From: Haloplanus rubicundus
GTDB taxonomy: Archaea; Halobacteriota; Halobacteria; Halobacteriales; Haloferacaceae
Direction of reading: 5' to 3'
Assembly: GCF_003342675.1 (NCBI RefSeq)
Contig: NZ_CP031148.1
Location: 2,790,001-2,854,000 of the forward strand
Length of the DNA stretch: 64,000 bases
Shown: one piece after another, positions 8,151 through 42,852 of the stretch
Layout of the letters: the number at the start of each line of letters is the position of its first letter
Position numbering within the stretch: position 1 is the first letter of the stretch
Made by a program: the position numbers and the translations under genes
Notes under the pieces: generated by a model
The model's database searches: none
What the model was told of the DNA's origin: nothing
What the model saw: only the letters and a program-made list of their open reading frames with translations

Positions 8151-8288
8151 GTCGCCGAGCGGGAAAACGACCCTGCGAAGGAGCGACGGGCGGTCCGAAC
8201 GAATCCGGAAGCGCCGGGCCACGCCGCGGAGTCACGGGAGGCGGAGATGGGAACACCTTTTGAACTCCCCCGGCGAGAAAGGCACAGG

Positions 8289-9194
8289 ATGCCCACGTCC
8301 GACGCCGTCTGCGTGCTCGTTCCCACCCTCGACGAGGGGGAGACCATCGGCGACGTGGTCCGTGACTTCCGCGACGCGGGTTACGGGAACGTCCTCGTCA
8401 TCGACGGCGGGTCGACCGACGACACCCAAGCGGTCGCCAGCGAGGCCGGCGCCCGCGTCGTCGAGCAGTCGGGCACGGGCAAGGGGCAGGCCGTCCGGGA
8501 GGCCATCCGAGAACACGTCGACAGCGAGTACGTCCTCATGCTCGACGGCGACGGGACGTACGAGGCCGACGACGCCGAGGCGATGCTCGAACCCCTGTGG
8601 TCGGGCGAGGCCGACCACGTCATCGGGAACCGCTTCGCCGACATGCGTCCGGGCGCGATGACGGCACTGAACCGCATCGGCAACCGCCTCATCAACGGCG
8701 CCTTCGGCGTCATCCACGGCGAGTCATTCGGCGACATCCTCTCGGGCTACCGGGCGTTCACCCGCGACTCCTTCGAGGAGATGCACCTCACCGCCGACGG
8801 ATTCGGCATCGAGACGGAGATGGCCGTCGAGTGTGCGAAACGGGGGATCGCGACGACGGTGGTGCCGATCACGTACTACCCGCGACCCGCGGGGTCGAAC
8901 ACCAACCTCCACCCGATCCGTGACGGCGGGATCATCTTCCTCGAACTCTACCGCCGGGCGAAGACCAACAACCCCCTGTTCTACTTCGGGAGCCTCGGCA
9001 CGGTGTCGACGGCCACTGGCTTCCTAGTCGCCCTCTACGTCGGCGTCGAGTGGGTGACCCGAGGGATCTCCCACGAGGTGCTCGCCGTCGTCGCCGCCTT
9101 CGCCATCCTCGTCGGCGTCCAGCTCCTGATGTTCGGCATGCTCGCCGACCTGATCCTCTCCCTGCACCGCGAGCAGTTGCGGGAACGGGAGTGA
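8289..9194 (+). CDS. aglJ: AglJ-like dolichol-phosphate glycosyltransferase
   Basis: A protein of 301 residues. Residues 1-220 are a family-2 glycosyltransferase domain with VLVPTLDEGETI, the DGDGTYEADD metal motif and a GFGIETEMA segment. Two C-terminal hydrophobic segments (around residues 240-290) anchor it in the membrane. The overall form, including the SLGTVSTATGF linker, is that of haloarchaeal AglJ, which adds the first hexose to dolichol phosphate in S-layer N-glycosylation. The ATG at 8289 is preferred over 8247 because CTTTTGA at about 8258-8264 can serve as TATA box. The TGA stop (9192-9194) is also the first three bases of the palindromic repeat that follows. Confidence 0.85.
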   Translation: MPTSDAVCVLVPTLDEGETIGDVVRDFRDAGYGNVLVIDGGSTDDTQAVASEAGARVVEQSGTGKGQAVREAIREHVDSEYVLMLDGDGTYEADDAEAMLEPLWSGEADHVIGNRFADMRPGAMTALNRIGNRLINGAFGVIHGESFGDILSGYRAFTRDSFEEMHLTADGFGIETEMAVECAKRGIATTVVPITYYPRPAGSNTNLHPIRDGGIIFLELYRRAKTNNPLFYFGSLGTVSTATGFLVALYVGVEWVTRGISHEVLAVVAAFAILVGVQLLMFGMLADLILSLHREQLRERE

Positions 9195-9279
9195 TACGGG
9201 TTATTGTGAGTCAGTACCGGTGGTTCGCAGAGACGGTTCGGCGAACCACCGGTAAACAGTTACAACAATCCGTACGAGA
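9192..9279. repeat. Dispersed palindromic repeat, copy 1
   Basis: A stretch of about 87 bases found again at 42766-42852 with roughly 11 substitutions and no gaps. It holds a 14-bp perfect stem (TACCGGTGGTTCGC at 9215-9228 with its complement at 9241-9254) around a loop containing GAGACGG, and a weaker outer arm (TTATTGTGA / TTACAACAA). It begins TGATAC, so the aglJ stop codon is its first three bases. The remaining gap to 9388 contains an AT-richer tract (9296-9350, with TTAACCCGGATTAAAT) that may hold a promoter. The function of the repeat is unknown; a transcription-end or protein-binding role is possible. Confidence 0.8.
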
Positions 9280-42609: not shown

Positions 42610-42768
42610 ATGCCGCAGATGCACGTCTCTACCCGCCGGGATCTGCTCGTCTGTCGAAAGTGTGATGCCGAGTTCCCGGAGGGTCGCGCCACGAAGGACG
42701 GGTGGACCTACGAATGTCCGGAGTGTGGCGAAGCGAGCGGCCTCGGCGAGGGGCTGCGGCGCGCCTGA
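42610..42768 (+). CDS. Small zinc-finger protein
   Basis: A protein of 52 residues. Two CxxC knuckles (CRKCDAEF and CPECGEASG) frame a WTYE strand, forming a zinc ribbon. Haloarchaea have several such small zinc proteins of regulatory type. The ATG at 42610 is chosen; the longer frame from 42580 lacks a promoter. Its TGA stop is the first three bases of the palindromic repeat copy 2. Function unknown. Confidence 0.74.
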   Translation: MPQMHVSTRRDLLVCRKCDAEFPEGRATKDGWTYECPECGEASGLGEGLRRA

Positions 42769-42852
42769 TACTGTTTATTGTAAGTCATTACCGGCGGTTC
42801 GCCGAGACGGTCCGGCGAACCGCCGGTAACCAGTTACAATAATCCGTACGAA
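42766..42852. repeat. Dispersed palindromic repeat, copy 2
   Basis: The better-preserved copy of the element at 9192-9279. A 16-bp perfect stem (TTACCGGCGGTTCGCC at 42788-42803, complement at 42814-42829) with a 10-base loop GAGACGGTCC is nested within perfect 9-bp arms TTATTGTAA (42775-42783) and TTACAATAA (42834-42842). It fills the gap between two convergent genes. Confidence 0.85.

Follow-up and report, generated by a model that had tools for sequence, protein, structure and literature searches.

The window, the whole 64,000-nucleotide stretch of Haloplanus rubicundus DNA that was analysed, carries two copies of a palindromic element, one directly after aglJ and the other directly after a short zinc finger gene (Table 1). 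An earlier note on this DNA had described a two-copy, 87-bp palindrome, and both copies were found where it had placed them, aligning gap-free with 88% identity over 86 bases. The matched stem change, T-A in copy 1 to C-G in copy 2, and the shared GAGACGG loop were both as described, as were the outer arms, perfect in copy 2 and decayed in copy 1. The length was not: alignment of all genomic copies set the limits of an imperfect palindrome of 80 bp, running from TAC.G to CCGTA, and the extra bases are flanking triplets, a TGA stop on one side and a decayed CGA on the other. Both window copies folded far more strongly than shuffled sequence (z -7.3 to -9.0), and a 21-base arm pattern gave four matches in the window, namely the four arms of copies 1 and 2, where 0.03 were expected. 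Among the Rfam covariance models run over the window only a tRNA reached its gathering score, and the element was unmatched. The orthologous aglJ 3' end of the closest congener (G005) does not carry the element, and an inverted-end plus repeat test at the aglJ stop detected none in 66 other haloarchaeal genomes.

Table 1. Features of the two element copies in the window and of the genes that they follow.
Feature	Position	Strand	Description
aglJ	8247-9194		AglJ by TIGR04182, 462 bits against a cut-off of 325
Copy 1 gene-side triplet TGA	9192..9194	+	Half of the target duplication; stop codon of aglJ
Element copy 1	9195..9274	+	80-bp imperfect palindrome, ends TACGG...CCGTA, from copy alignment
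Copy 1 inner stem-loop	9217..9252	+	CCGGTGGTTCGC...GCGAACCACCGG, loop GAGACGG
Copy 1 distal triplet	9275..9277	+	Half of the target duplication, TGA decayed to CGA
HVO_2901-family zinc finger gene, 52 aa	42610-42768		NF041915, 87.9 bits against a cut-off of 80
Copy 2 gene-side triplet TGA	42766..42768	+	Stop codon of the 52-aa HVO_2901-family zinc finger gene
Element copy 2	42769..42848	+	80-bp imperfect palindrome, ends TACTG...CCGTA
Copy 2 inner stem-loop	42791..42826	+	CCGGCGGTTCGCCG...CGGCGAACCGCCGG
Copy 2 distal triplet	42849..42851	+	Half of the target duplication, decayed to CGA
Element arm			TTATTGTAA

BLAST, a stem pattern and a covariance model based on 24 of the copies together identified at least 80 copies in the H. 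rubicundus genome, the stem pattern giving 58 matches per strand and a control pattern none. The covariance model also found the element in all 11 congeners searched, with a patchy distribution outside the genus, so that the prediction of many copies per genome, to be sought in this way in the host and its relatives, was borne out. All of the host's own copies lie on the 3.40-Mb chromosome (C2), leaving the remaining 0.37 Mb without any, a distribution with a chance probability of about 2e-4; the host contigs C1 and C3 (372 kb) are without a copy of this family (family A), yet contig C3 of G005 carries copies. In the congener G006, nine of 36 copies were identical, and the family has therefore moved recently. 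These nine, on contig C1 of that genome (L063, L082, L289-L295), represent a very recent burst and make it a good hunting ground for the mobiliser. Plasmid and phage collections held no match to the element, and neither did an exact 20-mer scan of a genome-contig collection.

The triplets flanking the copies are direct and not inverted repeats, mostly TGA-TGA or TCA-TCA, TCA being TGA on the other strand. An exact 3-bp direct repeat was present at 37 of the 80 copies, where independent flanks would give 17.5, and the two triplets agreed at two or more of three bases at 65. TAA-TAA flanks were seen at two copies (1733600 and 3203907), and TTA, TAT and ACT were duplicated at other loci; since triplets other than TGA are also duplicated, the right-hand triplet lies outside the element and is a copy of the target. 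Congeners without the insertion have only one triplet at the site (for example at 1536561, 1135368, 2116154 and 2481818): at 1536561 the filled site reads ctcTGA[element]TGAcccg and the empty one ctcTGAcccg, while the empty orthologous site at 2481818 reads TAA. The single-triplet empty sites thus define a non-autonomous transposable element that inserts precisely and duplicates 3 bp of its target. It has two features of a MITE: it is short, non-coding, inverted at its ends and palindromic nearly throughout, and it has a target-site duplication for which an empty site can be demonstrated. The earlier guess at a REP- or MITE-type family was right in kind, the copies forming a multi-copy, palindromic, MITE-like family, but the note had missed that 3 bp of the target are duplicated, that copies lie on stop codons, that the target has a consensus and that a second family exists.

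At most of the sites compared, close relatives have no element at the corresponding gene end; sites 3205445 and 1959635 are filled in G005 as well. The stop codon at 1790722 is occupied in G000 and in G006 and empty in the eight other congeners compared, a pattern that suggests parallel insertion or loss.

A copy was called as lying on a stop when its duplicated triplet ended a coding frame, as judged by a codon-usage score trained on the window. By this measure the triplet is the in-frame stop of a gene in 59 of the host's 80 copies (54 TGA, 4 TAA and 1 TAG). The scorer misses short genes, and window copy 2 was scored 'weak' though it ends a real zinc finger gene; a second, stricter gene call placed 52 of the 80 on stops. 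A random TGA lies on a gene stop in 5% of cases. The element shows no preferred orientation with respect to the gene (30:29), and the gene-side triplet remains a stop while the distal one decays, most commonly from TGA to CGA (16 of the 59 on-stop copies).

The combined target consensus was itself palindromic, GAC-TSA-GNC (S being C or G), with frequencies of 0.79 for G at -3, 0.76 for C at -1, 0.63 for G at +1 and 0.61 for C at +3. The consensus runs on as G at +4 and +5, and the target therefore partly resembles the element end TACGG. In several diverged copies GACGG stands at the gene-side end and recurs beyond the distal triplet. Diverged copies at C2:975004, 3258230, 1166671, 773891, 2305401 and 2475343 show GAC.. 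in place of TAC.. at the gene side, and TGAGACGG or CGAGACGG often follows the copy; the empty site at 1166671 in G005 reads TGAGACGG, and the motif thus pre-existed there.

We consider it likely that the element is a non-autonomous, MITE-like palindromic DNA transposable element, moved in trans through a 3-bp staggered cut at GAC-TSA-GNC, and that the excess on stops arises from target preference together with purging. According to this model, a trans-acting enzyme would cut the palindromic target with a 3-bp stagger, and insertion would duplicate its central triplet. Gene ends would be good targets because many haloarchaeal genes finish with a GNC codon and then TGA. An insertion there would keep the gene-side stop and leave the protein intact, and so escape purging; insertions elsewhere would be purged, which together with the target preference would produce the excess on stops.

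How far local sequence accounts for the excess was assessed by stratification on last-codon context. Stops make up 16% of non-coding TSA sites, and weighting by target context lifts the on-stop expectation to 29-40%. Of 67 copies, 54 lay on stops against 20.4 expected, a 2.6-fold excess over local context with a simulated maximum of 34; the last three pre-stop bases thus account for no more than about 20 of the 54, and target preference alone is insufficient. On-stop insertions were also in excess over TSA sites up to 60 bp downstream of stops, where harm from insertion should be similar (odds ratio 6.5-8.6, P ~1e-6 or less). Both results would be expected if the machinery recognised gene 3' ends actively, through a feature of transcription, translation termination or chromatin and not through DNA sequence alone. 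However, off-stop copies share the upstream GAC-TSA context of on-stop copies, and TAG stops, which do not fit TNA, have one copy at most, and that a doubtful one, though they make up 24% of stops (78 of 320), so that the DNA triplet itself matters. In G006, where 28 of 36 copies lie on stops, only five of the nine identical, youngest copies were on a called stop as against 23 of the 27 older ones. This age trend, though not significant (P = 0.09), is compatible with a DNA preference at insertion and purging thereafter. Active targeting of stop codons is accordingly a tentative alternative to target preference plus purging, and an additional targeting component beyond local sequence is possible.

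The stems of the family covary. Cells with both sides changed numbered 12, as against 6.3 in shuffles, with none of 500 shuffles as high, and in a larger set of 47 copies there were 60 double changes against 30 in shuffles (maximum 44); pairing of the stem changes thus held up once more copies were aligned. Such covariation, taken with the strong folding and the position just past stop codons, might point to a functional 3'-UTR hairpin under selection, one that terminates transcription or stabilises the mRNA and has been copied to the ends of genes. That explanation is improbable. Stem mismatches read in the mRNA sense comprised 19 G-U and 18 A-C, and with no preference for G-U over A-C nothing indicates that an RNA hairpin has been selected; the orthologous pair at site 1959635, one pair compared by eye, decays without compensation; and the absence of the element from most of the orthologous gene ends compared and from the Rfam matches likewise speaks against it. 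The view taken in the earlier note, that a matched change on both sides marks selection on pairing, is therefore unsupported, and the pairing probably belongs to the element as DNA rather than to a selected mRNA hairpin. On the simpler reading, covariation would be inherited from symmetric source copies, although a requirement for DNA symmetry during movement is also possible.

Two internal mismatches, G16-G65 and C18-C63, are kept in 45 of the 47 copies, and these conserved G-G and C-C oppositions may mark strand or end identity. In an element that is as a whole one imperfect palindrome they resemble strand-defining bulges, as might be expected if a tyrosine-type (IS200/REP-like) or integron-attC-like enzyme moved the folded single strand. 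In contrast, different targets give different duplicated triplets (TGA, TCA, TAA, TTA, TAT or ACT), and IS605-type insertion makes no target duplication (PMC3119063); a single-strand hairpin substrate is thus very doubtful, and an enzyme acting on DNA with a 3-bp stagger remains the reading that we infer. At C2:2116154, 1393234, 298010 and 2362980 the loop runs the opposite way to the outer arms, which suggests flips inside the palindrome.

A second family (family B) has the outer-arm plan and loop of family A; its ends are TAGGG...CCCTA, and its stem, GATTCTCGCCG, differs. About 20 copies were found in the host genome (C2), and the family was present in nine of the 12 genomes of the genus (loci L239-L268), with duplications more varied than those of family A. 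At L132:2086-2163 and from C2:3315025 onward, a family-B element directly follows the distal TGA of a family-A copy, a tandem insertion at one stop codon. Other haloarchaeal genera contain elements of the same plan with unrelated stems, often on stops (L071, L073, L075, L076, L081), which also speaks for active targeting. We may be dealing, as a possibility well short of a probability, with a haloarchaeal superfamily of mobile palindromes whose machinery singles out stop codons beyond local sequence and does the host almost no harm.

The mobilising enzyme was not found among the transposases of the genus that were searched. The domains DUF4096 (PF13340) and DDE_Tnp_1_2 (PF13586) are common in the IS1031 group. 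That group, of the IS5 family, prefers TNA targets, of which TGA is an example, and makes an exclusively 3-bp repeat (PMC12016507), both of which it has in common with the present element and which might suggest that the latter derives from an IS1031-type insertion sequence. Neither domain, however, was present in any of the 12 genomes of the genus, and the 30 IS4/IS5-type loci (PF01609, DDE_Tnp_1) inspected there had ends unrelated to those of the element, making such a derivation unlikely. An autonomous, longer copy was also considered in G006. Exact arm search gave 57 matches, of which the eleven that were not already known copies were all of the 80-bp class, and neither this search nor reading of the loci showed a longer element with the same arms. 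Unpaired arms over about 0.5 Mb of the host genome were nearly all decayed copies, and two belonged to family B.

In sum, the palindrome is genuine, non-autonomous but mobile, and has been active recently; it duplicates 3 bp on insertion and is strongly biased to stop codons. Damage to the host usually limits mobile elements, and landing on and duplicating stop codons is a near-harmless niche that is available in every gene. The family is in addition a clear record, left by nature, of how insertion proceeds, from empty site to duplicated stop and on to decay of the distal stop. It indicates a mobilising enzyme that escaped the present searches; haloarchaeal annotation and 3'-UTR analysis may be affected by it. 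In the open-access literature, which mostly leaves subscription papers outside its scope, neither the element nor duplication of stop codons by a palindromic element was found described.

Several known systems are comparable. REP elements (PMC3733652) and PATEs (PMC3119063) are likewise palindromic, intergenic, present in many copies and heterogeneous in their stems. REPs, however, are 20-40 bp long with an unpaired GTAG or CGTC tag (PMC3733652), whereas the present element is 80 bp long with paired TACGG/CCGTA ends and so falls outside that definition. PATEs are without terminal inverted repeats and target duplication (PMC3119063); the element has both, which sets it apart from a PATE or IS605 derivative. 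From the IS1031 group, which shares its TNA target and 3-bp duplication (PMC12016507), it differs in its unrelated ends. MITEs are similarly short and non-coding, with inverted ends and a target-site duplication, and are moved in trans; they have a parent transposon, whereas none with matching ends was found among the 30 PF01609 loci or by the arm search in G006, and nearly all of the present element is one palindrome. SMR-A and SMR-B of Haloquadratum walsbyi (PMC3119063) are also haloarchaeal, about 80-110 bp long and present in tens of copies, with a strong target preference, terminal inverted repeats unrelated to known transposons and no assigned mobiliser. They leave their target unduplicated and choose other mobile elements as insertion sites, in contrast to the 3-bp duplication at gene stops seen here, and since absence of duplication belongs to their definition the element is not a member. 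In kind, nevertheless, it is close to MITEs and to these Haloquadratum small mobile repeats.
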